DNA of 64,000 bases, taken from positions 2,331,245 to 2,395,244 of the forward strand of contig NZ_CP037895.1 of the NCBI RefSeq assembly GCF_004634385.1. Direction: 5' to 3'. Below, one piece after another: positions 4,764 to 58,151 of the stretch (its first letter is position 1; every line of letters begins with the position of its first letter). This stretch comes from Thermaerobacter sp. FW80 (GTDB taxonomy: Bacteria > Bacillota > Sulfobacillia > Thermaerobacterales > Thermaerobacteraceae). Position numbers and translations under genes: made by a program. The notes beneath the pieces are model-generated. The model had not been told where the DNA came from. It saw only the letters and a program-made list of their open reading frames with translations, and did no database searches.

Positions 4764-6539
4764 TCAGCGCTCCAGGCGGAACCCGCGCGGCAGCAGCGCC
4801 GTGATGGGGAGCGGCGCGGGTTCGCCGTCCACCCACACCTCCAGCGCCGGGGCGTACTCGAAGAGGAGCTGGCGGCACGCGCCGCACGGGAAGGGCCGCT
4901 CCGGCCCGTCGGCGGCCACCACGAGCCGCGTGAAGCGGCGCTGGCCCTCGGAGAGGGCCTTGAACAGCGCCACCCGCTCGGCGCACATGGTGAGCCCGAA
5001 GCTGGCGCTCTCGACGTTCCCGCCGGTGAAGACCCGGCCGTCGGCGGCCTCCAGCGCCGCCCCCACCCGGTACCGGGAGAAGGGCGCGAGGGCCGTCTCC
5101 CGCGCGGCCCGCGCCAACTCCACCAGATGCCCCCAGCCCGCCGGGAGCGGAGCCGGTCCGGCTGGGGTGGCGGCGGGCGCCACGGAAGCGGTGCTCGCCG
5201 CGCCGGTCACCGATCCCGCCGCGCCCGTGCCCTCCACACCGACCACGGCGTGGATCAGCGGCGGCGGCGACGCCGGTTCGTCCGCCAGGGTGAAGGCGGC
5301 CTGCAGCCGTTCCAGCGCCGCCGGCAGCCGCGCCCGGTCGTTGACGTGCAGCTCCACGAGCGGCTCCCCCGCCTCCACCCGGTCGCCCAGGCGCTTGCAC
5401 ATCACCAGCCCCACCGCCGGGTCGATGGGATCGTCCTTGCGGGCCCGGCCAGCGCCCAGCACCATGGCCGCGGCGCCCACCGCCGCGGCGTCCATGGCCG
5501 TCAGGTAGCCCGCCCGCGGCGCCGCGAAGGCCTCCCGGTGACGCGCCCGCGGCAGGCGTTCCGGGTCGTCGACGGCACGGGGGTCGCCGCCCTGGGCGGC
5601 GACCAGTCGCCGCAACATGGCCAGCCCGTCCCCGGCCTCGAGGCGCTGGGCCACCAGCCGGCGGCCGGCGTCGGGATCGGGCGCCTTGCCCCCCAGCCAC
5701 ACCATGTACCCGCCCAGGGTGAGGCACAGCTCGGTCAGCGCGGCGGGCCCGCGGCCCTGGAGGGTGGCGATGGCCTCCCGCACCTCGAGGGCGTTGCCCA
5801 CGGCGCGCCCCAGGGGCTGGTTCATGTCCGTCACCAGCGCCACCACCCGCCGCCCCAGCTGCCGGCCGATGCGGACCATGAGATGGGCCAGCTCCAGCGC
5901 CCGGTCCAGGGTCCGCATCAGGGCGCCCGAGCCGACCTTGACGTCGAGGACGATGGCGTCCGCGCCGCCGGCGATCTTCTTCGACATGATGCTGGCGGCG
6001 ATCAGCGGGATGCTGTCCACGGTGGCCGTGACGTCCCGCAGGGCGTAGAGGCGCTTGTCCGCAGGGACCAGGTCCGCGGTCTGGCCGGCGACGGCGATCC
6101 CGATGGATCGCACCTGGCGGATGAACTCGTCGCGGCCCAGCTCGACGCGGAACCCGGGGAAGGACTCCAGCTTGTCCAGGGTTCCCCCGGTGTGCCCGAG
6201 GCCGCGACCGGAGAGCTTGGCGACGGGGACGCCGGCGGCCGCCACCAGGGGCGCCACCACCAGGGTGGTCGTGTCGCCCACGCCGCCGGTGCTGTGCTTG
6301 TCGACCTTGATGCCCGGGATGTCGCCCAGGTCCACCGTCTCGCCCGAGAAGGCCATGGCCCGGGTGAGGTCCGCCGTCTCGCGGGCGTCCATGCCGCGGA
6401 AGAACACGGCCATGGCCCAGGCCGCCACCTGCTCGTCGGGGATGGTGCGCCGGGCGACGCCCTCGACCCACCACTCGATCTCCTCGCGGGTCAGGACGCC
6501 GCCGTCCCGCTTCTTCTGGATCAGGTCGTACGCCCGCAC
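4764..6539 (-). CDS. Pyrimidine-nucleoside phosphorylase / cytidine deaminase fusion
   Basis: Bifunctional salvage enzyme. Residues 1 to about 435 are a pyrimidine-nucleoside (thymidine) phosphorylase with IKVDKHSTGGVGD, SGRGLGHTGGT and KKIAGGADAIVLDVK. This domain cleaves (deoxy)uridine or thymidine with phosphate. After a 30-residue Ala/Gly/Pro linker, residues 468-591 are a tetrameric-type cytidine deaminase. Its zinc ligands are Cys519 (in MCAER), Cys552 and Cys555 (PCGAC), and the catalytic Glu is 521. Cytidine could thus be deaminated and phosphorolysed by one chain. GTG 6539 is chosen because GAGGAGG lies 8 nt upstream and VRAYDLIQKKRDGG is the normal N terminus. deoC follows the same pathway 185 bp upstream. 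There is no stop or internal ribosome site between the domains. Confidence 0.92.
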   Translation of the reverse strand: MRAYDLIQKKRDGGVLTREEIEWWVEGVARRTIPDEQVAAWAMAVFFRGMDARETADLTRAMAFSGETVDLGDIPGIKVDKHSTGGVGDTTTLVVAPLVAAAGVPVAKLSGRGLGHTGGTLDKLESFPGFRVELGRDEFIRQVRSIGIAVAGQTADLVPADKRLYALRDVTATVDSIPLIAASIMSKKIAGGADAIVLDVKVGSGALMRTLDRALELAHLMVRIGRQLGRRVVALVTDMNQPLGRAVGNALEVREAIATLQGRGPAALTELCLTLGGYMVWLGGKAPDPDAGRRLVAQRLEAGDGLAMLRRLVAAQGGDPRAVDDPERLPRARHREAFAAPRAGYLTAMDAAAVGAAAMVLGAGRARKDDPIDPAVGLVMCKRLGDRVEAGEPLVELHVNDRARLPAALERLQAAFTLADEPASPPPLIHAVVGVEGTGAAGSVTGAASTASVAPAATPAGPAPLPAGWGHLVELARAARETALAPFSRYRVGAALEAADGRVFTGGNVESASFGLTMCAERVALFKALSEGQRRFTRLVVAADGPERPFPCGACRQLLFEYAPALEVWVDGEPAPLPITALLPRGFRLER

Positions 6540-6723
6540 GCGGTCCGCCTCCTCGCCGTCCGGGGCCCCGCGGGCCGGCCGCCGGGCACCGGCCGCGCCG
6601 GTCCGCCCCATGGCGCCCGCCGGGGGCGCCCCTCCCCGCGGCCGCCGGCCGGCGGCAACCCCACGGCCGACGGCGGCGCCGGCAGCCCCACGGCCCACCG
6701 CCGCCGCCTGGCTGCGGCGGGGC

Positions 6724-21992: not shown

Positions 21993-24191
21993 CTAGACGC
22001 CGCGGACGCGCTCCTTGCGCTGGGCCCGCTCGCGGTGGACGATGGAGACCAGGGTGTCGCGCTCCAGCTCGTCCACCACGTACAGCCGACCGCCCGCCGC
22101 CCCGACCAGTTCCCGGAGATACCGCTCGTTGGGCTGCAGGCCGATGCAGGTGAAGGCGATGCGACCGAACCGCCCCTGCCCCAGCTGGCGCGCGACCTGG
22201 ACGGCGTCCTCCAGCGGGTTGGCGGTCCGGTAGGGCACCGTCGGGATGCCGTCGGTGATCAGCACCAACAGCGGGTTGCGGGCCCGGGCCTGGCGCAGGT
22301 AGCTGGCGGCCACCTCCAGACCCTGGGCCAGGGGGGTCAACCCGTAGGGCTGGATCTGGCCGAGTCCCCGCTCGACGCGGACGGTGTTGCGGGTCAGCGG
22401 GACCTGGACTTGGACCATGCGCTCCTGGAAGGTGATCACCGCCACCCGGTCGCGGGTGGTGACCAGGAGCTGGTGCGCCAGGTCCTTGGCCGCCCGGATG
22501 CGGCTGCCCGCCATGCTGGCGCTGGCATCCAGCACCAGGCCCACGTCCACGGGATGCCGGCGCACGCGGCGGTGGAGACGCAGATCGCAGGCCTGGAGCC
22601 GCAGCGGGAGCCCGCCCCGCACCAGGGCGGCCAGCACGGACTCGGCCACGGCCAGCCCGTCGCCCCCGGCACCCGGTTGCCAGGGGCGCACCGCGCGCCG
22701 CCGCACGTGGCGGCCGCGCTCGTCGTCGTAGACCGTCACCCGGCCGTGGCCCGGCCGCGCATCCGGTCGCGTCGGACGGACGCGCAACAGCCGCCGCAAG
22801 GCGGTGCGCACGGCGGCCGGCTCGTCCAGGAGCAGGCCCAGCAGCTGCCGGCCCCGGGCGGTCAACCGGTACTGCTCCCCCTCCCGCTCCACCAACCCCG
22901 CCTCTCGGAGTTGGTTCAGCCAGCGGCGCAGCTCCTCGTAGCTGGCGCCGGGCAGCTGCAGGTCGCGCCATGCCGCGCCTCGCTCCAGGCGCTCCAGCAG
23001 CGCCGCCGCCAGGTCGATGCCCGTCTCGCGCAGCCACCCCAGCGAGCGGGCCAGCAGCTGGTGCCGGACGGCCTCCCCTGCGCCCGCGGCCGGCAGGTCG
23101 CCCATCCCGTCGGCGTCGGCCGCCCCCTCGGGGTCCCCAGCGGACGAACCGGCAGCGGGTGCGGCAGCGGGCGCGGGGCCCTCGGGTTCGGCGTGGCCGC
23201 CCCGGCGGGGCGCCGGCCGCGACACCTCCCCGCTGCGGACCCCGAAGCCCTCCCCCACGGGATCCACGGGATGGGGCGGGGGCAGCACCGGCCCCGAGCG
23301 CCGGCGGCCAAGGCCCAGGCGGCTTGCGATCCCCTGCCGCGCATCGATCTCCAGCCCGGCGGCGTCGGGGTCGACCCCCCGTCCCATCGGGCCCCGCCCC
23401 AGCTCCCCGGAGCCGGGGGCATGGCCGTCGGCGCCGTCCCCGGCAGGCCCGGGGCGACCGGCGGTACCGGGCTCGCCCCCGGTCGCACCGGGCCGGCCGC
23501 CCGGGGTGGCACCCGGCCGCCCGTCCTCCCTTAGCAGCGAGTCCGAGGCGGTCTCGTAGTCGCTGAGGTCCAGGGGGGCGCCGCCTCGCCCGGCTACCAC
23601 CTCCACCGTCTCGACGCGGCGCAGCTCCAGACCGGCGGCGAGGACCGCCTCCTCGGCGGCGGCCACGGCGTAGATCGCGAAGCCCCACAGGGCGCGGGGG
23701 AGGCCGATGGCCAGGTGGACGTGGTTGCGGTGGGCTAGGCGCAGGGAGAGCCGCCGGCCGTAGATCAGGGAGCCGGAGGCGCGGCCGCCGCCGGTGCCCG
23801 TCTGCAGGTCGACGAGATCGGGGATGCGTTCCACCGCCAGGCCCGCCACGCGGTGGGCGCCGGCATCGCGGGCGAAGATCCGGGCGGCGCGGGCCAGGTT
23901 GCGCGCCACCAGGCGGTGGTCCACCTCGCCGTCGGCGTGGAAGACGTCCACGTGGAGCACCTGGCCGGGGCGGGACCGCCCGTAGAAGACCCGGCCCGCG
24001 TCGGCATCCCGCAGCACCTGGACGACGCCCGGGCGGCCCACCACCAGCAGGTGCACGCAGGTGCTGGCGACGGCGGCCTCGCCGATGCCCGCCGCGCCCC
24101 GGGCCAGCGACTCGAGGAGGCGCGCGGTCAGGTCGGCCTGCCGGCCCAGCCGCTCGGTGAGGCGTTCGATGCCCGCGATCCCCGGGGTCAC
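21993..24191 (-). CDS. VWA-domain protein partnered with AAA+ ATPase (BchD/CoxE-like)
   Basis: 732 residues from a GTG at 24191 that overlaps the ATPase stop by 4 bp (GTGA). Three parts are visible. Residues 1-200 form an unrecognised domain (HLLVVGRPGVVQVLRDADAG; GFAIYAVAAAEEAVLAAGLE). Next is a Gly/Pro-rich linker of about 170 residues. The C-terminal half has a winged-helix-like segment (LNQLREAGLVEREGEQYRLT) and a von Willebrand A domain with a full MIDAS: DASAS near 548, a Thr in GLTPLAQGLE and ITDGIPT. By analogy with Mg-chelatase D and MoxR-associated VWA proteins, it is probably the adaptor that the ATPase acts through. The target is unknown, and no chelatase H subunit lies nearby. 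Confidence 0.82.
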   Translation of the reverse strand: MTPGIAGIERLTERLGRQADLTARLLESLARGAAGIGEAAVASTCVHLLVVGRPGVVQVLRDADAGRVFYGRSRPGQVLHVDVFHADGEVDHRLVARNLARAARIFARDAGAHRVAGLAVERIPDLVDLQTGTGGGRASGSLIYGRRLSLRLAHRNHVHLAIGLPRALWGFAIYAVAAAEEAVLAAGLELRRVETVEVVAGRGGAPLDLSDYETASDSLLREDGRPGATPGGRPGATGGEPGTAGRPGPAGDGADGHAPGSGELGRGPMGRGVDPDAAGLEIDARQGIASRLGLGRRRSGPVLPPPHPVDPVGEGFGVRSGEVSRPAPRRGGHAEPEGPAPAAAPAAGSSAGDPEGAADADGMGDLPAAGAGEAVRHQLLARSLGWLRETGIDLAAALLERLERGAAWRDLQLPGASYEELRRWLNQLREAGLVEREGEQYRLTARGRQLLGLLLDEPAAVRTALRRLLRVRPTRPDARPGHGRVTVYDDERGRHVRRRAVRPWQPGAGGDGLAVAESVLAALVRGGLPLRLQACDLRLHRRVRRHPVDVGLVLDASASMAGSRIRAAKDLAHQLLVTTRDRVAVITFQERMVQVQVPLTRNTVRVERGLGQIQPYGLTPLAQGLEVAASYLRQARARNPLLVLITDGIPTVPYRTANPLEDAVQVARQLGQGRFGRIAFTCIGLQPNERYLRELVGAAGGRLYVVDELERDTLVSIVHRERAQRKERVRGV

Positions 24192-26295
24192 TGGGGGCCC
24201 CAGGACCGGAGGGCCCGGTCCCGCGTCAGCTCGAGCAGCGGCCGGGCGCGGCGGGGCGGGGTGGTCCCCGGCCGGGCGCCGGGACGCGCGGTCCCGGCGC
24301 CCGGCCGGACCGGGTCCGTGCCCATGGGGGTGCCGTCGGCGCCCGGTCGCCACGGGCCCGCGCCGGTCTCGGCCGTGGCGGGCGAGGCGGTGCCGGCCGG
24401 ACCCGGGCCGACCAGGGCGGAACCGGCCCCCCCGGGGCCCACGGGCCCCGGGGGGGCCGAGCCCTCGCCGCGGGTCCCGCCGCCGGCGGGACCCGCGGCC
24501 GAGCCGGTGCACCCCGGGGTGGCGCGGCCCGGGCCGCCGGCCGCCGGCCGGGCGGCCCGGGCCAGCATGTCCCGCAGCCGGCCCCAAACCCCGGCCGTCC
24601 CCCCATCCGGGCCCGTCGGCTCCCCGGAGCGGCCCGCCGCGGACCGTGCCGCAGGCTGCGCCGCGGCATGGCCTGGACCCGGAACGCCGGCCGCCCCGGC
24701 CGACGTCACGGCCCCGCCGCCGGGGACGGCACCCCAGCCGGCGGCCCCGGTGGGCCAGGTCGCCGGCTCGCCGGCGGCCGGATCCCCGACCGCATCGTCG
24801 GCGCCCGGGGCGCCGGCCCCGCCGCTGCCGTCGCGGCTCAGAAACTCCAAGACCTCCCCCAGCGCCCCGGCCTCCACGCGGTGGCGGAGGACGGCGGGCG
24901 CCACCTCCAGGAGATCCTCCCGCCGCACCCGGCGCCGACCCGCGCGGGCGGCGTAGAGGGCGGCCGCGTGGCGCCACGCCTCCAGGGCGCGCAGGCTCTC
25001 CAGGCGGAACTGGACGTAGACCTCGGCCAGCAGCTCCAGCAGGGGCTCCGGGAACTGGGGCCGCCGCCGGGCCGCCTCCCACCACCGCCGGTCCCACCCG
25101 TCGGCCCCGTCCCCGGACCGCGTCTCCGTGGCCGGCGGCTTCTCGAGCGGGCCCCCGCGCCCGTCCGCCGGCCCGGAGTCCTCGGCCGGCACGCCTCCCG
25201 GTCGACCCTGCCATCCCGGCAGGGCTCGGGCATCCGCGGCCGCCACGCGGTCCGTCCGCCCGTCACCCCCCGGTACCGGCGCAGCGCCCGTCGCCCCGGC
25301 CCGCCCCGCCGGCCGGCCGTCGCCCGCTCCCGCCCCGGCGGCCTCCGCGACCGCCGGCCCCCCGCGGGGTCGCCGCCGTCGCCCAAGGCGGCGGCTGTCG
25401 CCGTCACGCCCGCCGGTCGCGCGAGACCGGCGCCGGGCGACCGCTGGTCCCCCGGGCGCGCGCCCCCGGGCCCGGGCGGCGGCGCCCCCGTCGGGCATCC
25501 GCTGGCAGCCCCGGCCGACGGCCCGTCGGCGGCGGGGGCCGGCGGCGGGACCGCGGCCTCCGCCGCCGCCCGGGCCCGGGCTTCGCCGAGGAGGAGGATG
25601 CGCTTGACCAGCCACGGTTCGCCCGGGCGGCGCACGTCCAGCACCAGGTCGAAGCGGTCCGACAGCTGGCGGCGGATCTCCTCCAGCGGCCCCGGCTCCT
25701 CGTCGGGGTTGGAGGCCGCCCACACCGCCACCCGCACGGGGATCTCCACCGGGGGCAGGCCCGTCTCCTCGATCTGCAGCCGCCCGGGCTTGGTGCCCAT
25801 CACGTCCAGCAGGCAGTCCGCCAGCTCCGGGGCCACGTCGGCCAGGCGGTTGATCTCGTCCACCAGCACGATGCCGCGGTGCGCCTGGGCCAGGGTGCCC
25901 GGCAGCAGCGCCGCCTCGGGCCGCTGGCCGTCGGTCAACCGTGCCAGGTCCAGGCTGCCGATGACGGTGCCCACCTTGGCCGACGGCGAGATCTCGCGGA
26001 AGGGCATCGGGATCCACTCGGTGCCGTGGGCGGCGATCCGCTCGGGGTCCCAGTGGGCGTGCAGGGGGCAGTGGGGGGCGCGCGGATCGCAGTTGTACGG
26101 GCAACCGCGGATCCGCTGGATGCGCGGCAGGATGCGGCGCGCGGCGCGGAGGATGGTGGTCTTGCCGGTCCCCCGCACCCCCTCGGCATGCAGGTGCAGC
26201 GGCTCGCCCCAGAGCTGGGCGATGATGGACATCTCCACGGCCTCGAAGAGCTGGCGGTTCCCCTCGTGCCGGATCAGCGACCCGTACTCCTGCAT
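24188..26295 (-). CDS. Chelatase-I-like AAA+ ATPase, apparent frameshift in the linker
   Basis: AAA+ ATPase related to Mg-chelatase subunit I/MoxR. The ATG at 26295 begins MQEYGSLIRHEGNRQLFEAV. Walker A is GVRGTGKTT, Walker B GIVLVDEINR, sensor 1 AASNPDE. A Cys motif GCPYNCDPRAPHC (residues 65-77) suits metal binding. After about 310 residues the frame dissolves into Arg-rich sequence, while another frame carries on with a clear helical C-terminal domain (LLELLAEVYVQFRLESLRAL; VRREDLLEVAPAVLRHRVE) and a 200-residue Gly/Pro tail to the stop at 24188. One added G in the six-G run at 25358-25363 would join them (about 702 aa). The GTGA overlap with the VWA gene argues for one coupled gene, broken either in the organism or by sequence error. 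Confidence 0.75.
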
Positions 26296-26624: not shown

Positions 26625-27512
26625 TCAGTCCACCGCCCGCGCCGCCGCGCGCCGCCGGGCGGCCCGCTGGCGCAGCACGTACCAGAGGGGGCTGGCGACG
26701 AAGATCGAGGAGTAGGTCCCGAAGAGGATGCCGAAGAACAGCGCGCCGGCGAAGGCGCGGATCGTCTCGCCGCCGAAGGCGAAGACCGCCGCCAGGGCGA
26801 GCAGGGTCGTGGTGCCGGTCAGCAGCGAGCGACGCAGCACCTGCCGGATGGAGCGGTCCACCAGCTGGTCCAGGGGCTCCTTGCGGCGCAGGCGCAGGTT
26901 CTCGCGGATGCGGTCGAACACCACCACGGTGTCGTTGATGGAGTAGCCGAACACGGTCAGCAGCGCCGCGATGAAGGACGAGTCCACCTGCCACTGCAGC
27001 AGGGCGAACAGGCCGACCACCATGAAGACGTCGTGCAGCATGGCCAGGATGGCCGCCACGGCGAACCAGAACTCGAACCGGATCGTCATGTAGACGACCA
27101 TCCCCACCGTGGCCAGGGCCAGGGCCAGGATGCCCCTCTCGCGGATCTCCCGGCCGATGGCGGGGCTGATGCTGTCGAACTGCTCGAGCCGGACCGGGCC
27201 GAGCCGCTCCTCCAGGGCGCGGAGGACCCGCTGCTGGGTGGCCTGGTCCACGGCGGGCGTGCGCAGCAGCGCCACCCGGTCGCCCTCGCTGAGCTGGACG
27301 ACGGCGTCCTCCACGCCCTGCTCCGCCAGGACGGACCGCACCGCGCCCGCGGTCACGGTCCGCTCGAAGCGCAGGGTCCAGGCGGCGCCGCCGGTGAACT
27401 CCACGTTGTAGTTGAGGCCGCGCACGGCCCAGGCGATCATGCCCGCCGCCAGCAGGAGCAGGCTGAGGGCGAAGGCCACGCCCCGGGTGCGGACGAACGA
27501 GAACCCCTTCAC
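26625..27512 (-). CDS. secF: Protein translocase subunit SecF
   Basis: Membrane partner of SecD; the pair uses proton motive force to complete protein export through SecYEG. 295 residues from a GTG at 27512 that overlaps the secD stop by 4 bp (GTGA). The first transmembrane segment lies at 11-31. The periplasmic SecF signature YNVEFTGGAAWTL follows, and five more helices occupy 125-285, with FGYSINDTVVVFDRIRENLR and LTGTTTLLALAAVFAFGGE. SecD and SecF are separate here, unlike the fused SecDF of B. subtilis. A strong terminator ends the operon. Confidence 0.96.
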   Translation of the reverse strand: MKGFSFVRTRGVAFALSLLLLAAGMIAWAVRGLNYNVEFTGGAAWTLRFERTVTAGAVRSVLAEQGVEDAVVQLSEGDRVALLRTPAVDQATQQRVLRALEERLGPVRLEQFDSISPAIGREIRERGILALALATVGMVVYMTIRFEFWFAVAAILAMLHDVFMVVGLFALLQWQVDSSFIAALLTVFGYSINDTVVVFDRIRENLRLRRKEPLDQLVDRSIRQVLRRSLLTGTTTLLALAAVFAFGGETIRAFAGALFFGILFGTYSSIFVASPLWYVLRQRAARRRAAARAVD

Positions 27513-31023: not shown

Positions 31024-33141
31024 CTACCTGGATCGGGTCCCATCTTCATCTCCGGGCTCATCGTCAGGGCCGCCGACCACCCGTCGCAGGTCGCCCTCGC
31101 GCCGCGTCCAGCGGCGGCGGTCGAAGTACTCCAGGAGGGGCAGCGCCCACTTGCGCGTCACGCCCAGCGCGTCCCGCGCCTGGGCGACGGTGAAGGGCCC
31201 GACCTGCCGCTCCAGCGCCACCAGGCGCCGCCAGGCGTCGACCAGCGCCTCGGGCGTGAACCACAAGCCGGTGTCCACGCGCACCACCCGACCCTGCCGC
31301 TCCAGGATGCTCAGCAGCCCCAGCGCGTCGGCGACGGGGACGCCGGCCGCCGCCGCGGCCTCCTCGGCGCTGGCCGGCGGAGCCAGCCCGCCCTGCCGAT
31401 AGACGGCGGCGAGCCGCTCGAGGTGCTGGCGGGCGGCGGCCGTCCCGCCGGGTTCCCAATCGGGCAGACGCAGCCGGTCGTCGTCGGCGGCCAGCACGCC
31501 GGCGGCGATCCACGTCTCCAAGAGCGCCTGCAGCCCCGCCCTCGCCTCGGCCTCCGGCACGGGCCGGTCGCCGGTTCGCGCATCCGCGGCGCCCCGGGCC
31601 GCACGCCAGAGGGCATGCAGCAGGGCGTCGCGGCTCATGCCGGCCTCCAGCGGGCGTTCCCGGTGGTGACGCTCCAGGGCGGCGCGCGCGTGCCGGGCCA
31701 GGGCCTCGGCCGCGGGCGCGGCCACCCAGTGGCCGCCGGGCAAGGAGCGGACGCGCCCCGCCGCCTCGGCGCGGGCGAGGGCCTGCTCGATGCGCCGCAT
31801 GGGCTGACCCAGCTCCCGGGCCAGGGCGGTGGCGGGGCGCGGCAGCCCGGCCCGCTCCAGGCGGGCCGTCAAGCCGTCGGCCGGGTCGTCGGCGAGGAAG
31901 GCGACCAGCCACCGGCCCGGCGCGTGGCGCCGCGACCAGACCCGGCCCACGTCGGCCACGACGCCGCCCCCGGCGGTGCGCGCCGGCGAGTAGGTGCGCA
32001 CGACGAACCGGTCGCCGGGCGCGACGACCAGGGGTTCCTCCAGGCGGATCAGCGCCCAGCCCGCCTCGCCCGGCTGCCAGGGACGCACCGGCTCCAAGAG
32101 GCGCACGCGGCCCAGCACCTCGGCGGCGCCGGCGTGGACCCGCACCCGCTCCTGGTGGCGCAGGGGCCAGGGCGCGCGGGGCAGCCACTGGAGGCGTACC
32201 GCCAGCCACCGGGTGGCCTCCAAGGTGCCGGGACGAACCAGGACCTGCCCGCGGTGCAGCGCCTGATGGTCCACGCCGACCAGGTTGGCCGCCACCCGCT
32301 GACCGGCCACGGCCTCCTCCACCTCGCGACCGTGGACCTGGAGGTGCCGGATGCGCGCGGTCATCCCTCCGGGCTGCACCTCGACCCGGTCGCCGACCCG
32401 CACCCTCCCTGCCACCAGGGTCCCGGTGACCACGGGACCGAAGCCGGGGAGGGTGAAGGCGCGATCGATGGGCAGCCGCAGGAGGCCGTCGGCATCCCGG
32501 CCCGGCACCCGTCGCGCCGCGTCCTCCAGGGCCGTCAGCAGCCGATCGAGGCCCTGGCCCGTCGGCGGCGCCACCCGGACCACCGGCGCCTCGGCGAGGA
32601 AGGTGTCCCGGAGGTGGGCCCGCACGTCCTCCTCCACGAGGTCGAGCCATGCCGGGTCGTCCACCAGATCCACCTTGGTCAGCACCACTAGGCCGTGCCG
32701 GACGCCCAGCAGCTGCAGGATGTCCAGGTGCTCGACGGTCTGCGGCATCACGCCCTCGTCCGCCGCGACCACCAGCAGCACCAGGTCCATCCCGTGGACG
32801 CCGGCGGCCATGTTGTGGACGAACCGCTCGTGGCCGGGGACGTCGACGATGGCGGCCGGGCGGCCGCTGGGCAGGCGGAAGGGCGCGAAGCCCAGGTCGA
32901 TGGAGATGCCGCGCCGCTTCTCCTCCTGCAGGCGGTCGGTGTCGACGCCGGTCAGGGCGCGGACCAGGGTGGTCTTGCCGTGGTCCACGTGGCCCGCGGT
33001 GCCGATCACCAGGGGCGGCGGCCCCGCGGGCGCGGAGGCCGCCGTAGTGCCGGCCTCCCCGGCGGCGGCACCAGACCGGGGCGCGGTCATCCCGCCGCCC
33101 TTCCCCGCGCCGGGGGACGCGCTGTCGCTCGGCCCGTTCAT
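31024..33141 (-). CDS. selB: Selenocysteine-specific elongation factor SelB
   Basis: GTPase that delivers Sec-tRNA(Sec) to the ribosome at UGA codons marked by a SECIS hairpin. 705 residues from the ATG at 33141 (an ATG at 33090 is an alternative). G1 is [18 protein letters not shown]3 [12 protein letters not shown] and G4 TKVDLVDD. Switch region [13 protein letters not shown] matches SelB rather than EF-Tu. Domains II and III follow, then four winged-helix repeats that bind SECIS RNA, ending [20 protein letters not shown]. It implies selenoproteins in the genome, but selA, selD and tRNA-Sec are not in this window. Confidence 0.94.
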
Positions 33142-33227
33142 CGCACCATCGCCTCCGTCGCCTCCTGCCTCATGGCGCGCCCCTGCGCATGGCACGCCCG
33201 TGCCCGGACGGCCCACCGCCCGTTTCG

Positions 33228-34712: not shown

Positions 34713-36143
34713 ATGCTCAGCATACACGCTGTGCGCGAACTTTTCCTCCAGACATTGCGGGAACTGGCGGAGCTGGTGACGGAGGACCGATCGTTTGGCG
34801 AACTGGAGGAAGCCGTTCAGCGGCTCAGCGGCCGGCTGACACTGCGGCTGCTGGAGTGGGTGTTGGCCGGGATCGATGAGCGACTGATGCAGGAGCGGGA
34901 CCCGAGCCGATATGAGTGCCTGGATACGCGGGAGCGGGTCCTGGACACGCCGCTGGGCGAGTTGCAGGTGAAGCGACGTTACTACCGGGACCGGGCGACG
35001 GGCCAGGGTGTGTTCTTGCTGGATGAAGCACTGGGCTTGGAATCGCGGCGGCGACTGTCGCCGCGGCTGGAAGCGCTGTGCCGGCGGCTCGCGACGGAGA
35101 TGCCGTATCACCGAGCGGCGGCGGTCCTGCGGGAGTTGACGGCGGGGCAGGCACCGGCGCGGGCGATGACGGTGTGGCGGGCGTCCCAACGGGCGGGGCG
35201 CCGGTTGAAGGAGGCGGCGGAGCGGCTACGGCGGTCGGTGTTCGTGGAGGGCCAGGTGCCGGAAGGCCGGCGCCGGAGCGTCGAGCTGCATGCCGAAGCG
35301 GACGAGGTTTATCTGCGGGGTCGAGGGCAACCGGTGGTGTTGAAGCTGGGGGTCGCGTACGAAGGCAAGCAAGCCGTGGGTTCGAACCGGCAAGCGCTGC
35401 GGGAGCGGCGGGTCGTGGCGGGGGTGATGCCGGGGACGGCCTTTTGGGAGCAGGCGAGCGCCTATTGGGGGACGCACTGGGATCTGAGCGCGGTCCAGGC
35501 TTGTTACCTCGGAGGCGATGGGGCGCATTGGGTCAAGCAGGGGTTGCAGTACTTCCCCCGCGCGTGTTACCGGCTGGATCCGTTCCACCTGCGGCGAGCC
35601 CTGCGGGAGGCGTTATCGCCTTCCGAGGAGACGTACGCCCAGGTGTGCCGGGCCATCGAAGCGGGGGATTGGGCGGGCGTGGAGTCGGCGCTTCGCCAGA
35701 CGCTACGGGGGCGGCGTGGTCCGGCGCGGGAGCGCTTGTTGCGGCTGCGCGGCTACTTGCGGGAGCACTGGGACGGGATTGTGGCTTCTGGGGAAGCGCC
35801 GCGGCTGGGGGCGATCGAAGCGGAGGTCTTTCACGTCCTTGCGCGACGGATGAAACGGCATGGGGCGCGTTGGAGTGAACGCGGCGCCGACCACTTGGCG
35901 CGGCTCTTGAGCGAACGCGTGGACCCCCACTGGCGCGCGGTCCTCGGCGGCCGGCCCCTGCAGATTTCGCCCGGCGTGCGGCAGGCGACACGCCAGGCCG
36001 TTCAGCGCGTGATGCGCCAGCTCGAGGAGGACCCAGCCCGTTGGCTGCGTGCCCGCATCCCAGCGCTCACCGGGCCGCATGCGACCAAACCCTGGGTTCA
36101 GGTGCTGCGCGACCTGGCCCATGTCCACGCACCGGTGGCTTGA
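34713..36143 (+). CDS. ISLre2-family transposase
   Basis: 476-residue transposase of the UPF0236/ISLre2 family, the normal length. Family features in order are: an N-terminal helical region; DTPLGELQVKRRYYRDRATG, a beta strand before the catalytic core; ELHAEADEVYLRGRG with a candidate first Asp; YLGGDGAHWVKQGLQYFP with the family-typical GDGAxW motif; LDPFHLRRAL with another conserved Asp/His pair; and a C-terminal helical domain ending RDLAHVHAPVA. The frame is intact, so the enzyme is probably active. Its ribosome site lies in a stem-loop. Confidence 0.93.
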   Translation: MLSIHAVRELFLQTLRELAELVTEDRSFGELEEAVQRLSGRLTLRLLEWVLAGIDERLMQERDPSRYECLDTRERVLDTPLGELQVKRRYYRDRATGQGVFLLDEALGLESRRRLSPRLEALCRRLATEMPYHRAAAVLRELTAGQAPARAMTVWRASQRAGRRLKEAAERLRRSVFVEGQVPEGRRRSVELHAEADEVYLRGRGQPVVLKLGVAYEGKQAVGSNRQALRERRVVAGVMPGTAFWEQASAYWGTHWDLSAVQACYLGGDGAHWVKQGLQYFPRACYRLDPFHLRRALREALSPSEETYAQVCRAIEAGDWAGVESALRQTLRGRRGPARERLLRLRGYLREHWDGIVASGEAPRLGAIEAEVFHVLARRMKRHGARWSERGADHLARLLSERVDPHWRAVLGGRPLQISPGVRQATRQAVQRVMRQLEEDPARWLRARIPALTGPHATKPWVQVLRDLAHVHAPVA

Positions 36144-42468: not shown

Positions 42469-43443
42469 TCAACCCAGCCAGCGCGCCACCTCCGGCGCGT
42501 GGTAGGTGATGATGGCGTCCGCCCCCGCCCGCCGCATGGCCGTCAACGCCTCCAGCACCACCGCCTGCTCGTCCACCCAGCCCTGCCGCGCGGCCGCCTT
42601 GACCAGGCTGTACTCGCCACTGACATTGTACGCCACCACCGGCACCGGGAACCGCTCGCGGACGGCGCGGATCACGTCCAGGTAGGCCAGGGCCGGCTTG
42701 ACCATCACCAGGTCGGCCCCCTCCTCCAGGTCCAGGGCCACCTCCCGCAGCGCCTCGCGCACGTTGGTGGGGTCCATCTGGTGGGTGCGCCGGTCGCCGA
42801 AGGCGGGGGCGGAGTGGGCCGCCTCCCGGAACGGGCCGTAGAAGGCGGACGCGTACTTGACGGCATAGGACAGGATCGCCGTCTCCTGGAAGCCGTCCTC
42901 GTCCAGCGCCCGACGGATCGCCCCCACCCGGCCGTCCATCATGTCCGACGGGGCGACCCAGTCGGCGCCGGCGCGGGCATGGGAGAGGGCCACCTGGGCC
43001 AGCTGCTCCAGGGTCGCATCGTTGTCGATGCGACCGTCGGCGGTGAGGATGCCGCAGTGCCCGTGGCTGGTGTAGGCACAGAGGCACACGTCGGTGATCA
43101 CCAGCAGGTCCGGCAGCGCGTCCTTGATCGCCCGGATGGCCTGCTGCACGGCGCCGTCCGGCGCCGCGGCCTCGCTGCCGCGTTCGTCCTTCGCCCGCGG
43201 CAGACCGAAGAGCAGCACGGCGCGGATCCCCAGCGCGAAGACCTCCCGGGCCCGCTCCACCGCGCGGTCGACGGACCGGTGCTCGACCCCGGGCATGGAC
43301 GGCACCGGCTCCACCACGTCCCGGCCCGGGACCACGAACAGCGGGTAGATCAGGCGGTCGACGGTCAGATCCGTCTCCCGCACCAGGCTGCGCACCGCCG
43401 GGCTCGACCGCAGCCGCCGCGGGCGATGCACCGGAAAGGCCAT
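42469..43443 (-). CDS. hemB: Delta-aminolevulinic acid dehydratase (porphobilinogen synthase)
   Basis: Condenses two 5-aminolevulinates to porphobilinogen. The ATG at 43443 is preferred over a GTG at 43452, because GAGGTG then has normal spacing; 324 residues. The Schiff-base lysines are in [19 protein letters not shown] and [15 protein letters not shown]. The Cys-rich zinc site is present: [16 protein letters not shown] has the three Cys ligands of a zinc-dependent enzyme rather than the Asp of the Mg type. It is the last gene of hemA-hemX-hemC-hemD-hemB, 28 bp after hemD. hemL is not in the window. Confidence 0.95.
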
Positions 43444-43470
43444 GGCTTTCACCTCGAGCGCGACAGGGGC

Positions 43471-44838
43471 CTACGAACCCCCGCCAGCCTCTAGTCCTTC
43501 GAGAAGGGCCGCGACCAATCCTTCCGCGGTGAAGCGGGATGGCACCCGGTCGACGGGCAGGCCGAGGGCCGCCGCCCGCTGGGCGGTGCGGGGACCGATG
43601 CAGACCACCAGCGGGCGCCGGCCGCCGGGTCCCGCCGGTTCCCGATGCGGGAAGAACCGACCGAGCCCTTCGGGCCCCGCCGCCTCCGCCAGGGCCTCGC
43701 AGGCCGAGGGGCTGGCCAGGGTGACCGCGTCGACGCGCCCGGCGCGCACGAGCTCCAGCAGGGCCGCCGCCTCCTGCCGTCGCAGCACCGTGCGGTAGAC
43801 CACCGGCGCGCGCAGCACGGCCCCGGCCTCCACCACCGGGCGGGCCGCCGCCACCGCGGCCCGGTCACCCCGCGGCCACACCACCCGCTGGCCGGGCTGG
43901 ACGCGACGGGCCAGTTCCTCCCAGAGACGGGCACCGGTGAACGCGGACGGGACCACGTCGGCCCGAATCCCCACCGCCCCCTCCAGGGCACCCCGCGTCG
44001 CCTCGCCGACCACGGCGACCCGGGCACCGGCCAGCGCCCGCGCGTCGCCCCCCCGCGCCCGCAACCGCCGGGCCAGGGCGGCCACGCCGTTCTGGCTGGT
44101 GAAGACCCACCAGCTTCCGCTGGGGTCGTCCAGCTCCGCGTCGAGCTCCGCCTCGCCGGGGGCCGGCTCCACGGCGATCAGCGGGAGCTCCAGCGCCTCG
44201 CCGCCCAGGCGGCCGACGAGCTCCGCCAGATCGCCAGCCTGCTCGGCCGCCCGGGTGACCGCGACGCGCCAGCCGGCCAGCGGCGGCGCCGGCTGGCGTC
44301 CGTCCGCGGACCCGCCGCCCGCCGGCACCCCCGGTACCGGGATCACGCCGACCCCTGCCGCGGCCAGGGCCGTCCCCTCGTCCCGGGACGACCGACCGCG
44401 GACCAGCCGGACGACCCGCAGTCCGGCCCGCGCCCAGCGGGCCAGGCGCCCCGCGACGCGATCCGGCTCGAGCCGGCCGGCCACCGGCAGCCGGCCGGCC
44501 CAGGGAGGTCGTCCCGGCGCCGCCTCCGCTCCCGCTGGCGGCGTGACGAGCCAGAGGGCGGCGGTGGGCGAAGCCCACCGCTGGAGCGCCGCCTCCAGGC
44601 CGGCATCCGCCACCACGACCTCGGCGGCTCGGAGCAGCTCGCTGCCGCGGACGGTGAGCAGGCCGGGGTCGCCGGGCCCCGCCTCCACCACGTAGACCCA
44701 TCCGGGCAGGCCCCAGAGCTCGCCGACGGCGGCCCGGCCGGGCGCGGCGACCCCTTCGGCGGCGCCGGCCGCACCTCGGTGGCCGCCGTCCGCAGCACCG
44801 CGTCCCCACGGGTTCTCCGCGCCCTGGTCGCCCGGCAT
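43471..44838 (-). CDS. hemD: Uroporphyrinogen-III synthase fused to a decayed SUMT half-domain
   Basis: 455 residues from the ATG at 44838 (GGAGGT upstream). Residues 187-455 are uroporphyrinogen-III synthase (WRVAVTRAAEQAGDLAEL; WWVFTSQNGVAALARRLR; ASPSACEALAEAAG; CIGPRTAQRAAALG), which closes hydroxymethylbilane with ring-D inversion. Residues 47-172 look like the first half of uroporphyrinogen-III C-methyltransferase: VYVVEAGPGDPGLLTVRGSE matches the usual VGAGPGDPGL start. The SAM-binding GGDPFVFGRG stretch is replaced by VRGRSSRDEG, and the second SUMT domain is missing. The N-terminal part is probably not a methyltransferase. It lies between hemC and hemB. Confidence 0.9.
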   Translation of the reverse strand: MPGDQGAENPWGRGAADGGHRGAAGAAEGVAAPGRAAVGELWGLPGWVYVVEAGPGDPGLLTVRGSELLRAAEVVVADAGLEAALQRWASPTAALWLVTPPAGAEAAPGRPPWAGRLPVAGRLEPDRVAGRLARWARAGLRVVRLVRGRSSRDEGTALAAAGVGVIPVPGVPAGGGSADGRQPAPPLAGWRVAVTRAAEQAGDLAELVGRLGGEALELPLIAVEPAPGEAELDAELDDPSGSWWVFTSQNGVAALARRLRARGGDARALAGARVAVVGEATRGALEGAVGIRADVVPSAFTGARLWEELARRVQPGQRVVWPRGDRAAVAAARPVVEAGAVLRAPVVYRTVLRRQEAAALLELVRAGRVDAVTLASPSACEALAEAAGPEGLGRFFPHREPAGPGGRRPLVVCIGPRTAQRAAALGLPVDRVPSRFTAEGLVAALLEGLEAGGGS

Positions 44839-44957
44839 GCGCCCACCTCCCCGATCCCGGCCCTCGCCGGCCCCGCCCGGCTCTGCCGCGCCTCGGCCGG
44901 CCGATGCCGGCATGGCGGCGTACCGCCCGCCCCGCGCGCCCCGCCCCGACCGACCGC

Positions 44958-46010
44958 TCAGGGTCGCCGGCCGTCGCCGTCCCCGGCGGCCGCGCCCCCA
45001 CCCGCCGCCGCCAGCACGGTCCGCGCCCCCTGGGCCACCAGTCGCTCGGCCAGCGCCCGGCCGACGCCCTCGGGGTCCTGCGCCGGGCCCACCACCTCGT
45101 CCTCCAGCCAGGGCGACCCGTCCCGTCCGGCCACCATGCCCCGCAGGCGCAGGCGGGACCCCTCGACCCGCCCCCAGGCCCCCAGCGGCACCCGGCAGGT
45201 GCCGCCCAGCTCGGCCAGGAAGGCCCGCTCCGCCCGCACCGCCAGCGCCACCTCAGGGCAGTCGAGCACCGCCACCAGCCGTCGCATCGCCGCGTCGTCC
45301 CGGCGGATCTCGACGGCCAGCGCCCCCTGGCCCGGCGCCGGCAGGAGCACCGACGGCGGGACGGGTGCGCTGATCCGATGGCCCAGGCCCAGGCGTCGCA
45401 GCCCGGCGGCGGCCACCAGCAAGGCGTCCCACGCGCCCCCGTCCAGGCGTCGCAACCGCGTGTCCAGGTTCCCGCGGGCCGGTTCGACCGCCAGGTCGGG
45501 CCGTCGGGCGCGGAGCCACGCCTGACGGCGCAGGCTGCTGGTCCCCACCCGGGCACCCGGCGGAAGGCGATCCAGCGGCCCGATCGGCCCCCCCTCCCCC
45601 TTCGCCGTCACGCCGCCGTCCGGTCCCGGCTCGGTCGCCGGCGCGGCCGCCCGGGACGGGTCGGCCGCGGCCGGCAGCACCAGGGCATCGCCGGGGTCCT
45701 CGCGCTCCGGGAAGGCGGCCAGCTCCAGCCCCTCGGGCAGGCGCGTGGGCACGTCCTTGGCGCTGTGGACCGCCAAGTCGATGCGCCCGTCGCGCAGGGC
45801 CTGCTCCAGCTCCTTGACGAAGGCGCCCGCCGTCTCGAGGGCGTAGAGGGGCCGTGCCCGGTCCCGATCCCCCTGGGTGGTGATGGGGACCAGCTCCACC
45901 GCCAGGTGGGGGTGGTGCCGGCGGAGGCGCTGCGCCACCCGCTCCGCCTGGAGCCGGGCCAGCGCGCTGGAGCGGGTGCCAATGCGCACCACCCTGGCGG
46001 CCACGCTCAT
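44958..46010 (-). CDS. hemC: Porphobilinogen deaminase (hydroxymethylbilane synthase)
   Basis: Polymerises four porphobilinogens. 350 residues from the ATG at 46010. Motifs: RIGTRSSALARLQAERVAQ, AVHSAKDVPTRLPEGLELAA, GTSSLRRQAWL and ARGNLDTRLRRLDGG. The dipyrromethane cofactor is attached to the Cys in LGGTCRVPLGAW. An insertion of about 30 Ala/Gly/Pro residues lies before GTSSLRR. The start codon is 9 bp from the hemX stop. A 20-residue Gly/Asp-rich tail ends it. Confidence 0.95.
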   Translation of the reverse strand: MSVAARVVRIGTRSSALARLQAERVAQRLRRHHPHLAVELVPITTQGDRDRARPLYALETAGAFVKELEQALRDGRIDLAVHSAKDVPTRLPEGLELAAFPEREDPGDALVLPAAADPSRAAAPATEPGPDGGVTAKGEGGPIGPLDRLPPGARVGTSSLRRQAWLRARRPDLAVEPARGNLDTRLRRLDGGAWDALLVAAAGLRRLGLGHRISAPVPPSVLLPAPGQGALAVEIRRDDAAMRRLVAVLDCPEVALAVRAERAFLAELGGTCRVPLGAWGRVEGSRLRLRGMVAGRDGSPWLEDEVVGPAQDPEGVGRALAERLVAQGARTVLAAAGGGAAAGDGDGRRP

Positions 46011-46019
46011 CCCTCCCCC

Positions 46020-46898
46020 TCAGAAGACGTGGCGGGTCGACCAGTGCGGCCCCACCACCAGGTAGTTGAAGAGGATGACGGCGAAGCCGACCAGCGAAAG
46101 GTACGCCAGTCGGCGCCCCCGCCACCCCGCCACGGCGCGCAGGGTCAGGAGCAGACCGTAGAACAGCCAGGCGGCCAGGCTGGCGATCACCTTGCCGTCG
46201 CTGGCCCAGCGGTCGTCCCACAGTTGCCCGGCCGAGAGGGTCCCGCTGGCCAGCGCCAGGGTGAGCAGGGCGAAGCCGCTGCCGATCAGCCACCAGCAGG
46301 CGCGGTCCATCTCCTCCAGGGCGGGGAGGTGGCGGTAGAGGCGGCTGAAGACCTTGCTCCGCAGCTGGCGCTCCTGGAGGAGGTACATGGCCGCCAGCGC
46401 CGAGGCGAGGCCGAAGGCGCAATAGCTCAAGAGGGCGATGATGGCGTGGAGCCAGATCCAGGGTGCGCCGAAGGGGTCCCCACCCCCGAGCCCGGCGACG
46501 GCCGCCGCCGACGCCGCGGGCAGGCCTTCATCGGCCGCCGCCACCGCGCCGGCCCTCGCCGGCCCGCCGACGGCCGCCACCAACACGAGCAACGCCACCA
46601 CGGGCGGCAGCATGAAGGCCCCCAGGGCCCGCAGCCCCAGCAGGGACTCCAGCACGAGCCCATTGAGCACCCATCCCCAGCCGAGGAAGAACACCGACCC
46701 CTGCGGGCTCAGGAAGGGGACGTGGCCGGTCGCCACCGCGACGGCCAGGAGGCCGGTGTGCACCGCCCACGTGACGCGGGCCAGCCAGCGCGCCGCGGCA
46801 TCCCGCGCCAGGCTGCCCAGCGCCCAGGCGTACCCGCCTGCGGCGGCCAGGTAGCCGAGGGTCACGGCCACGTATGCCCATCCCAGCCAGCCCTGCAC
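46020..46898 (-). CDS. hemX: HemX-type cytochrome assembly membrane protein
   Basis: 292-residue protein of the CcsA/HemX family (PF01578), with about eight transmembrane helices. The GTG at 46898 follows AGGTGA. Conserved C-terminal features: WIWLHAIIALLSYCAFGLAS with the His, LPALEEMDRACWWLIGSGFA and SDGKVIASLAAWLFYGLLLT, which corresponds to the DPKExW region. It sits between hemA and hemC, the exact place of hemX in Firmicute hem operons. HemX there lowers glutamyl-tRNA reductase (HemA) levels. A direct heme-handling role is also possible. Confidence 0.87.
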   Translation of the reverse strand: MQGWLGWAYVAVTLGYLAAAGGYAWALGSLARDAAARWLARVTWAVHTGLLAVAVATGHVPFLSPQGSVFFLGWGWVLNGLVLESLLGLRALGAFMLPPVVALLVLVAAVGGPARAGAVAAADEGLPAASAAAVAGLGGGDPFGAPWIWLHAIIALLSYCAFGLASALAAMYLLQERQLRSKVFSRLYRHLPALEEMDRACWWLIGSGFALLTLALASGTLSAGQLWDDRWASDGKVIASLAAWLFYGLLLTLRAVAGWRGRRLAYLSLVGFAVILFNYLVVGPHWSTRHVF

Positions 46899-46940
46899 CG
46901 GCTCTCACCTGCCGCCCGTCGCGGACCAGCCCCCGCCGGA

Positions 46941-48446
46941 TCACGGCCGTCCGACCCGCGCGTCCGCGCCGCCGGCGGCCGCGCGGGCGCCCGACCGCGG
47001 CCACCGGGGATCCGGGGCCTCGCCGCCCGCCGGGGCCATCCGGTGGGGGCCATCCGCCGGCAGGGGCCCATCCGGTGCGGCCCCCGCGGCGTCCGCCTCC
47101 CCGCCGGCCCGCGGCGGGGCTTGGCCGTCGCCGGCGGCGGGGGCGTGGGTGCCCGCCCCGCGGCGGCCGCGGGGCGCCGGTTCGTCCAGGGCGAACAGCT
47201 CGGTGAAGGCCTCCTCCAGGTACACCGGGCCGCGGCCGCCCGCCACCGCCTCCTTCAGGCGCACCATCGGATCGTTGAGCAGCTTGTTGACGATCAGCCG
47301 GGTGAGGCCGTCGATCACCTGGCGGTCGCGCTCGGAGAGATGGGGCAGCTTGCGCAGCGCCCGTTCCAGCTCCTGGCGGCGCATGGCCTCGGCCTTCTCC
47401 CGCAGCGAGCGGATCAGCGGAACCACGTTCAAGCTCTGCAGCCACCCCTCGAACTGGCGCACCTCTTCGTCCAGCATCGCCTCGACCCGGCTCGCCTCCT
47501 CCCGCCGCAGCCGGAGGTTCGCCTCCACCACCGCCTCCAGGTCGTCGATGTCGTAGAGGAAGACGCCGTCCAAGCGTCCGGCCGCCGCCTCGACGTCCCG
47601 CGGCACGGCGATGTCCACCAGCAGGAGGGGGCGACCCCGCCGGCGCCGCATGGCCTCCCGCACCATGGCGGCGGTGATCAGCGGGCGGGCGGATCCGGTG
47701 GAGGCGATCACCACGTCGCACTCGACCAGGGCCTCGGCCAGCCGCTCCAAGGGCAGCGCCCGTCCTCCATAGGCCGCGGCCAGCTGCCGACCGCGCTCCA
47801 CGGTCCGGTTCGCCACCACCAGCCGGCAGCCGCCGTCCTCCGCCAGGCTGCGGGCGGCCAGCTCCGCCGTCTCCCCCGCACCCACCAGCAGGACGGCCCG
47901 CCCCTCCAGCTTGCCGAACACCTTGCGGGCCAGCTCGACGGCGACGTAGCTGACGGACACCGCGTGCTGACCGATGGCCGTCTCCGTGCGCGCCCGCTTG
48001 CCCGCCGCCAGGGCCTGCTGGAACAGGCCGTGCAGCACCTTGCCACAGGTGCCGGCGGACGCGGCCGCGTGGTAGGCGTCCCGCACCTGACCCAGGATCT
48101 GGCTCTCCCCGAGCACCATGGAGTCCAGGCCCGCCGCGACGCGGAACAGGTGGCGGGCGGCGGCCGCGTCTTCCCGCAGGTAGAGGTAGGCCTCCAGCTG
48201 CTCGCGCTCCATGCCCGCCCAGCGGGCCAGGGTCTCCTGCACCTGGCGGATCCCCTGGCCGTGGTGCTCCGCCGCGGCGTAGACCTCCACCCGGTTGCAG
48301 GTGGAGAGGAGCACCACCTCGTCCACGGCCGGGAGGGCCACCAGCTCCCGCAGCGCGGACGTGGCCGCCTCCGCGTCGACCGCCAGCCGTTCCCGCACGG
48401 CGACCGGGGCCGTGCGGTGGTTCATCCCGACGAGAATCACGCCCAT
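46941..48446 (-). CDS. hemA: Glutamyl-tRNA reductase
   Basis: First step of heme synthesis by the C5 route: reduces glutamyl-tRNA to glutamate-1-semialdehyde. 501 residues from the ATG at 48446. The catalytic Cys is in LLSTCNRVEVYAA. Substrate and NADPH motifs are GMNHRTAPVAVRERLA, LDSMVLGESQILGQV, VLLVGAGETAELAARSL and VANRT. The dimerisation helix domain follows. After about residue 425 an Ala/Gly/Pro tail of 75 residues is added, beyond the usual length. First gene of the hem cluster, 7 bp after the menaquinone methyltransferase stop. Confidence 0.95.
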   Translation of the reverse strand: MGVILVGMNHRTAPVAVRERLAVDAEAATSALRELVALPAVDEVVLLSTCNRVEVYAAAEHHGQGIRQVQETLARWAGMEREQLEAYLYLREDAAAARHLFRVAAGLDSMVLGESQILGQVRDAYHAAASAGTCGKVLHGLFQQALAAGKRARTETAIGQHAVSVSYVAVELARKVFGKLEGRAVLLVGAGETAELAARSLAEDGGCRLVVANRTVERGRQLAAAYGGRALPLERLAEALVECDVVIASTGSARPLITAAMVREAMRRRRGRPLLLVDIAVPRDVEAAAGRLDGVFLYDIDDLEAVVEANLRLRREEASRVEAMLDEEVRQFEGWLQSLNVVPLIRSLREKAEAMRRQELERALRKLPHLSERDRQVIDGLTRLIVNKLLNDPMVRLKEAVAGGRGPVYLEEAFTELFALDEPAPRGRRGAGTHAPAAGDGQAPPRAGGEADAAGAAPDGPLPADGPHRMAPAGGEAPDPRWPRSGARAAAGGADARVGRP

Positions 48447-53982: not shown

Positions 53983-54660
53983 CTAGCCCTCCTCGGTCTG
54001 GGCCCGCGCCCGCCGGTGGATCTCCTCGGCCAAGCGGCCGATGCGCACCCGCTGGCTCAACAGGAGGAAGAACAGCAGGGTGAAGGCGAGGACGGCGGAC
54101 TGCAGCGCCAGGCGCATGGCGGGGTCGAGGCGCATGTCCCCGCCCTGGCGCAGGACGGGGTGGATGGAGGTCCACCACACCGACGACATGTACACGATGG
54201 GCACGTTGAGGAAGCCCGCGATCCCCAGCACCGCCGCGTACCGGCCCCGGCTCGCCGGTTCGTCCACCGCCGCCCGGATCAGCAGGTAGCCCACGTACAG
54301 GAACCAGAGGATCAGCGTGGTGGTCAGCTTGGGGTCCCAGGTCCACCACACGCCCCACACCGCCCGGGCCCACAGCGAACCCATCACCAGGGTGATGGTG
54401 GTGAAGAGCACCCCCAGCTCGGCGGCCGCCGCGGCCAGCCGGTCCCACCGCGCCTGGGGCCGCCTCAGGTACGCGAGGGAGGCGACGAAGACGAGGGCGA
54501 AGGCCAGGAAGCCCACCCATGCCGCCGCCACGTGGAAGTAGAAGATGCGGTGGACGTTGCCCATCACCCGTTCGGGGGGTGCGTAGCGAAGGGCCATGTA
54601 CAGCGCCCCGACCAGGGCCGCGTAGGTGATCAGCAGGAAGCCTGCCGCCCGGCGTGACAT
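53983..54660 (-). CDS. ccmC: Heme handling protein CcmC
   Basis: Six-helix membrane protein that loads heme onto CcmE. 225 residues from the ATG at 54660. The Trp-rich heme-contact motif WGVWWTWDPKLTT (residues 104-116) is complete. Histidines flank it in RIFYFHVAAAWVGF and near YMSSVWWTSIHP, as needed to ligate heme. It sits 11 bp after ccmAB and 2 bp before ccmD. In this cluster CcmC works with a Cys-type CcmE. Confidence 0.94.
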   Translation of the reverse strand: MSRRAAGFLLITYAALVGALYMALRYAPPERVMGNVHRIFYFHVAAAWVGFLAFALVFVASLAYLRRPQARWDRLAAAAAELGVLFTTITLVMGSLWARAVWGVWWTWDPKLTTTLILWFLYVGYLLIRAAVDEPASRGRYAAVLGIAGFLNVPIVYMSSVWWTSIHPVLRQGGDMRLDPAMRLALQSAVLAFTLLFFLLLSQRVRIGRLAEEIHRRARAQTEEG

Positions 54661-54670
54661 GGCTCGCCTC

Positions 54671-57741: not shown

Positions 57742-58151
57742 CGGGCCGCCTCGGCACGCGCCGACTCGTACTTGGACGGGCACTTCACCATGACGCGATC
57801 GGCCACCAGCGTGTCCCCCTCGAGGCGCCCCTCCACCACCACGTCGACGCCGTCCTGCAGGAGATCCGGCTTGACGCCCTTGTAGACCACGGGGAGCGGA
57901 CGGCCCGAGTCGCCGGCCATCGCGAAGGCCAGGGTGACGTCGTGGACGGACCAGGCCACCGTACCGGGTGCGACCCGGCCGTGCACCCGGACGAACCTCC
58001 CCTCCAGCTGGTCGGCGCGCCCCAGGGCTTGATCGACGGACAGGTAGTACGTCTTCGCGCTCTGAAAGCCCATCAACGAGAGGTAGGCGATGCCAGCCAG
58101 GACCACCAGCACGGCCAGCCCCACCTTCACGCGCGCGGACACCGCCGTCAC
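57738..58151 (-). CDS. ccmE: Heme chaperone CcmE, Cys-type (CxxxY)
   Basis: Periplasm-side heme carrier of cytochrome c maturation. 137 residues (a GTG at 58142 is an alternative start, because neither start has ideal spacing to GAGGG). One N-terminal anchor helix (8-28) and an OB fold (YLSVDQALGRADQLEGRFVR; VVYKGVKPDLLQDGVDVVVE). The heme-binding site is CPSKY (Cys124, Tyr128), not the His of the classical HxxxY. The CxxxY variant is known from System I-star in archaea and some Gram-negative and Gram-positive lineages that lack CcmH. First gene of the Ccm cluster, with a promoter just upstream. Confidence 0.93.
   Translation of the reverse strand: MTAVSARVKVGLAVLVVLAGIAYLSLMGFQSAKTYYLSVDQALGRADQLEGRFVRVHGRVAPGTVAWSVHDVTLAFAMAGDSGRPLPVVYKGVKPDLLQDGVDVVVEGRLEGDTLVADRVMVKCPSKYESARAEAAR

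Follow-up and report, generated by a model that had tools for sequence, protein, structure and literature searches.

An AAA+ ATPase and VWA adaptor pair, widespread in Firmicutes, with a conserved N-terminal domain that has no clear relative

What does a chelatase-like ATPase do, together with a VWA partner, in a genome that has no large chelatase subunit? The question is raised by a two-gene locus of Thermaerobacter sp. FW80, in a stretch of 64,000 nucleotides of contig NZ_CP037895.1 (hereafter, the window). Here, on the minus strand, between secF (26625-27512) on one side and recJ (ending at 19516) on the other, an AAA+ ATPase starting at 26295 is followed by a 732-residue VWA protein with a GTG start (21993..24191), which we call the adaptor. 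The initial annotation had proposed that the two form an undescribed ATPase-adaptor system. Our analysis supports this proposal: the pair is a variant of the AAA+/VWA machines that is widespread and undescribed, and a search of the literature found no description of it. The families of the motor and the VWA half, the coupling of the two genes, the conservation of the motor residues and of the metal ion-dependent adhesion site (MIDAS), the conservation of a new domain, and the absence of the large subunit are all established.

The new domain lies at the N terminus of the adaptor (residues 22-232; 23496..24128, minus strand, as are all features of the pair given below). Residues 1-390 matched no model in Pfam, NCBIfam, PHROG, or PADLOC, and when 30 members of the domain were searched against Pfam at E values of up to 10, only chance-level matches appeared, each in a single member. 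AlphaFold2, supplied with 30 relatives, predicted a confident fold (pLDDT 91.5, pTM 0.89). A sequence search of the PDB with the domain found no relative, and nothing stood out in fold searches of the PDB (best Foldseek E 0.28; VIA Z at most 5.2, for chorismate synthase and biotin ligases) or of viral models (best E 0.25), although the lack of a listed match does not prove the fold new. The early remark that the first 200 residues resemble nothing known has thus held up, and no partner of the CoxE or BchD type emerged that would explain the domain.

Conservation within the domain was assessed in 39 diverse proteins, some from subfamilies that are about 25% identical. S43, H47, D64, A65, G66, H80, D82, H85, T131, H157, H159, and E180 are conserved in 38 or 39 of them, and this set of conserved polar residues suggests a metal or catalytic site. 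The H157-x-H159 motif, present in 38 of the 39 homologues, recalls the HUH endonucleases; we rejected that interpretation, as the family has no conserved tyrosine.

The rest of the adaptor is laid out as initially described. A low-complexity linker of variable length (residues 233-392; 23016..23495) leads to a winged-helix-like segment (residues 393-470; 22782..23015), a pre-VWA segment (residues 495-548; 22548..22709), and a VWA core with a full MIDAS (residues 549-712; 22056..22547). Pfam recognizes VWA_2 (1.9e-15) and HTH_45 (1.4e-5), and the MIDAS residues (D555-x-S557-x-S559, T619, and D647) are invariant in all 39 homologues. The model of residues 393-732 (pLDDT 83.6) comprises a helical winged-helix-like part and the VWA core. 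PDB relatives of the VWA part include BchD, and most PDB fold matches are limited to the VWA core. The VWA matches in the Foldseek list that extend over most of the 340-residue model are those to NorD (9qh6, 9qh8, and 9qhe), aligned over 279-291 columns, gaps counted, at a root-mean-square deviation of 8.4. The match to the cobaltochelatase model TIGR02442 begins at residue 495, ahead of the VWA core, and the pre-VWA segment is therefore shared with chelatase D proteins. These two matches make this segment a candidate for the pore "finger" of such machines. In NorD, a finger beside the VWA domain enters the pore of the NorQ ring, and NorQ remodels the linker, permitting iron insertion (PMC13036017); the finger is predicted in ChlD, Rea1, and VWA8 as well (PMC9976466).

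The ATPase matches the AAA half, and the adaptor the VWA half, of this one fused cobaltochelatase model. The N-terminal part of the ATPase (residues 1-235; 25590..26295) carries the AAA+ core motifs (Walker A, Walker B, sensor 1, and Arg finger, including GVRGTGKT and VDEIN), is 59-95% identical to its counterparts in relatives, and has BchI/ChlI as its PDB sequence relatives. Its Cys/His motif, C65-x3-C69-x5-H75-C76-x2-H79 (26059..26103), is a likely metal site and is retained in 32 of 33 homologue rows, the exception being a truncated row, and in 19 of 20 tree rows. True cobaltochelatase-type ATPases of the relatives have C-x3-C and then C-x2-C at the same position (e.g., GCRFNCDPSAKDLCPEC). 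Because four Cys occupy the homologous site there, we regard the motif as an inherited feature of the chelatase class, altered to Cys/His, and probably as a zinc-like site. The chelatase-I features and the Cys motif had thus been recognized correctly, whereas the motif is not the novelty it had seemed. A tree was built from 20 pair ATPases, five chelatase-type ATPases from relatives, and one YifB; its branches are long and its rooting is uncertain. In it, a branch with support of 100/99 separates the pair ATPases from the chelatases. We assign the ATPase, by its sequence, to the chelatase/MoxR class of AAA+ proteins, separate from the true chelatases.

The two genes are coupled. Counting FW80 itself, adaptor homologues that include the N-terminal domain occur in 39 of the 51 close-set genomes; across the phylum, a search with the N-terminal domain alone picked out 115 of 398 genomes. 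Named matches include Sporomusa, Pelosinus, Anaerospora, Lucifera, and Fermentithermobacillus, in addition to many metagenome-assembled genomes (MAGs). A scan of genome contigs returned at least 80 loci; among the matches listed, one is named as an Acetobacteraceae MAG, and its locus resembles the Firmicutes ones. In many families of the class, and outside it too, the ATPase and VWA genes are neighbours, with a frequent -4 overlap. The order secD-secF-ATPase-VWA-recJ-relA is that of most long loci within the class and of many others, and a gene for a LapA-domain protein often lies between the VWA gene and recJ. The pair had been taken for an interruption of an otherwise Bacillus-like gene block; since this order is common in relatives, it is not an insertion. 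In distant subfamilies the pair occupies other genomic positions. Three loci (L157, L158, and L173) have one ATPase followed by two or three VWA genes, which matches what is expected of a motor with exchangeable adaptors. Apart from the secDF/lapA/recJ/apt/relA block, the loci compared show no conserved third gene next to the pair. An Orn/Lys/Arg decarboxylase gene directly follows the VWA gene in seven loci of one lineage (L095, L118, and five others, of the Fermentithermobacillaceae type) and recalls the LdcI-RavA association; it is absent from the genus Thermaerobacter, and the decarboxylase is for this reason not a general client.

Across the family, an AAA+ ATPase with intact motifs is encoded beside a MIDAS VWA protein; in FW80 itself the ATPase frame is broken. 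The N-terminal frame, read downward from 26295, ends at a stop at 24840-24838, while the C-terminal part (24188..25120), with its AAA_lid_2 domain (PF17863, 1.2e-7; 24872-25033) and a low-complexity tail reaching 24188, lies in a different frame. G+C content by codon position shifts phase between about 25590 and 25120. This zone (25120..25590), where one base is apparently missing or an equivalent change has occurred, falls in a linker of low complexity that is rich in G+C and has runs of six G. In two loci of the same genus (L033 and L034) the N and C parts are in one open frame, and in a third (L191) the matches to both parts share one frame. The simplest reading is a one-base indel in FW80, due to misassembly or to a recent mutation. 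The 4-bp overlap of the two genes reported at first does exist as GTGA at 24188..24191, where it joins the ATPase stop to the VWA start and recurs in many relatives, but because no single frame links the ATPase start to the VWA gene, it is valid for the shifted frame only. In another genome of the genus (G001; L191 and L032), the pair is divided between two contigs (C1 and C2) and the low-complexity tail of the ATPase is shortened, by rearrangement or misassembly.

Two Sporomusa genomes provide a natural experiment in which the motor core and the VWA domain are gone and the N-terminal domain is retained. In Sporomusa ovata (L136:7556-8697) and Sporomusa sp. KB1 (L143:7586-8723), the ATPase lacks residues 41-360, with an identical in-frame junction. 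Counted on the Sporomusa silvacetica protein, the adaptor frame ends after residue 316-324 or so, without the VWA domain; an open frame holding the N-terminal domain is kept. Neither genome has an intact copy of the pair elsewhere; the other matches are chelatase-like genes at ~26-35% identity. The joint loss of the AAA core and the VWA domain is as expected if both work as one unit. Between the two remnants, the ratio of nonsynonymous to synonymous substitution rates (dN/dS) is 0.17 for the N-terminal domain and 0.20 for the 115-codon ATPase stub, and since the stub gives a similar value, a separate function of the N-terminal domain is not established.

We think it probable that the pair encodes a remodelling machine of the chelatase clade of AAA+/VWA systems, one that acts in the manner of NorQ-NorD or BchI-BchD and has no tetrapyrrole chelatase subunit. 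The ATPase, to judge from its family, would form a hexamer; the pre-VWA segment, given the NorD match, would insert into its pore as a finger; and the MIDAS may grip an acidic residue of a client. The linker would pass ATP-driven twisting on to the N-terminal domain. There, the invariant His, Asp, and Glu residues may bind a metal, a metallocofactor, or a substrate, and the outcome would be the remodelling or loading of a client protein.

One of the closest described parallels is NorQ-NorD, a MoxR AAA+ and VWA couple responsible for FeB insertion into nitric oxide reductase (NOR) (PMC13036017, PMC9976466). Both are two-gene AAA+/VWA pairs in which the adaptor has an N-terminal domain, a long linker, a pre-VWA segment, and a MIDAS VWA domain, and Foldseek aligns most of the C-terminal half. 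They differ in that the ATPase of our pair is chelatase-type with a Cys/His motif, that no counterpart was found for the N-terminal domain of its adaptor, that a winged-helix segment precedes its VWA domain, and that there is no sign of a NOR operon beside it. RavA-ViaA likewise combines an AAA+ motor with a VWA partner, but our adaptor matches ViaA weakly (E 0.13), and the decarboxylase that follows the pair in one lineage is absent from Thermaerobacter. Several points weigh against the proposed machine: the pre-VWA segment is of middling confidence in the model, and the finger is only a candidate, because the NorD alignment has so high a deviation and its column count includes gaps; transfer of function from the chelatases is risky because the pair ATPases form their own group on a long branch; and the frame break may leave the ATPase dead in FW80.

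An alternative that we consider very improbable is an I/D pair of the usual magnesium- or cobaltochelatase kind, providing a tetrapyrrole. The kinship is real: the pair shares with BchI/BchD and the TIGR02442 proteins the AAA core, AAA_lid_2, the VWA module, and a Cys-rich segment after the Walker A helix, and a heme gene cluster of hemA, hemC, hemD fused to SUMT, and hemB, with a cytochrome c assembly gene among them (42469-48446, minus strand), lies 16-22 kb away. These hem genes make heme precursors, however, and heme ferrochelatases require no ATPase. The ATPase scores far under the model cut-offs, at 77.8 bits for BchI-ChlI (TIGR02030; cut-off, 466.95) and about 101-102 bits for Cob-chelat-sub (TIGR02442; cut-off, 779.45), and even the relatives' intact pair ATPases reach at most 146 bits with the latter. 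It has a three-Cys, two-His motif where the chelatase ATPases have four Cys, and in place of the AAA domain of a chelatase D subunit the adaptor has an N-terminal domain for which no AAA model matched (residues 1-232) and no AAA match was listed for the predicted fold. The large subunit CobN/BchH (PF02514) is absent from the FW80 genome and was found in only 1 of the 51 genomes searched, most of them carriers of the pair; this one genome (G031) carries, besides the pair, the genes of a true chelatase. Judging from these sequences, the pair is not a chelatase. The early statement that no large chelatase subunit or pigment pathway lies nearby is therefore strengthened as to the subunit, which the whole genome lacks, and has to be qualified as to the pathway, given the heme genes. 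CcmC-, CcmA/CcmB-, and CcmE-like genes are also found in the window, at 53983-58151.

The other alternatives concern what the motor serves. The N-terminal domain could itself be an enzyme with a His/Asp site, perhaps metal-dependent, that the motor only switches or recycles. We hold this to be possible though doubtful: the domain is dense in invariant polar residues and its frame survives in the two Sporomusa remnants with a dN/dS of 0.17, but the similar value of the stub means that the deletion may be too recent to tell or that both remnants are functional, and no enzyme fold was matched in the fold searches. A remodelling machine specific to sporulation seems rather unlikely. SpoIVA is present in 111 of 115 carriers versus 224 of 283 noncarriers (Fisher p 3e-6, kinship ignored), and in some distant members the pair stands directly before a gerM-like gene (Germane domain); yet kinship confounds this count, most of the sporulating (SpoIVA) genomes sampled lack the pair, and elsewhere its neighbours are secDF, recJ, and relA rather than spore genes. 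The co-occurrence and the gerM-like neighbour are a lead toward a role in sporulation, no more. Very improbable, too, is a MoxR-vWA system serving conflict or defence, although MoxR-vWA couples form the core of ternary conflict systems that have been described (PMC7159879). PADLOC gives a single weak winged-helix match (E 0.005, 39 residues), inheritance is mostly syntenic with secDF/recJ/relA, and no third effector gene is conserved beside the pair.

Elsewhere in the window, a selenocysteine elongation factor of the SelB type is encoded at 31024-33216 (minus strand). A UPF0236 family gene, which we take to belong to a transposase family of ISLre2-type elements, lies at 34713-36143 on the plus strand, opposite to most of its neighbours. 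One open frame at 4764-6698 (minus strand) combines a domain of pyrimidine nucleoside phosphorylase with one of cytidine deaminase; deoC and thymidine kinase genes lie close by.

The pair is present in more than a quarter of the phylum genomes sampled. The N-terminal domain might even be an undescribed fold for handling metals or cofactors, and the pair a novel metallocofactor-loading machine of many spore-forming Firmicutes, distinct from the chelatases and from the described MoxR systems; this further step we propose only tentatively. Because a well-studied motor principle, an AAA+ ring with a VWA adaptor, is here tied to a conserved His/Asp/Glu domain, a widespread blind spot would become testable with one purified domain and one deletion mutant.

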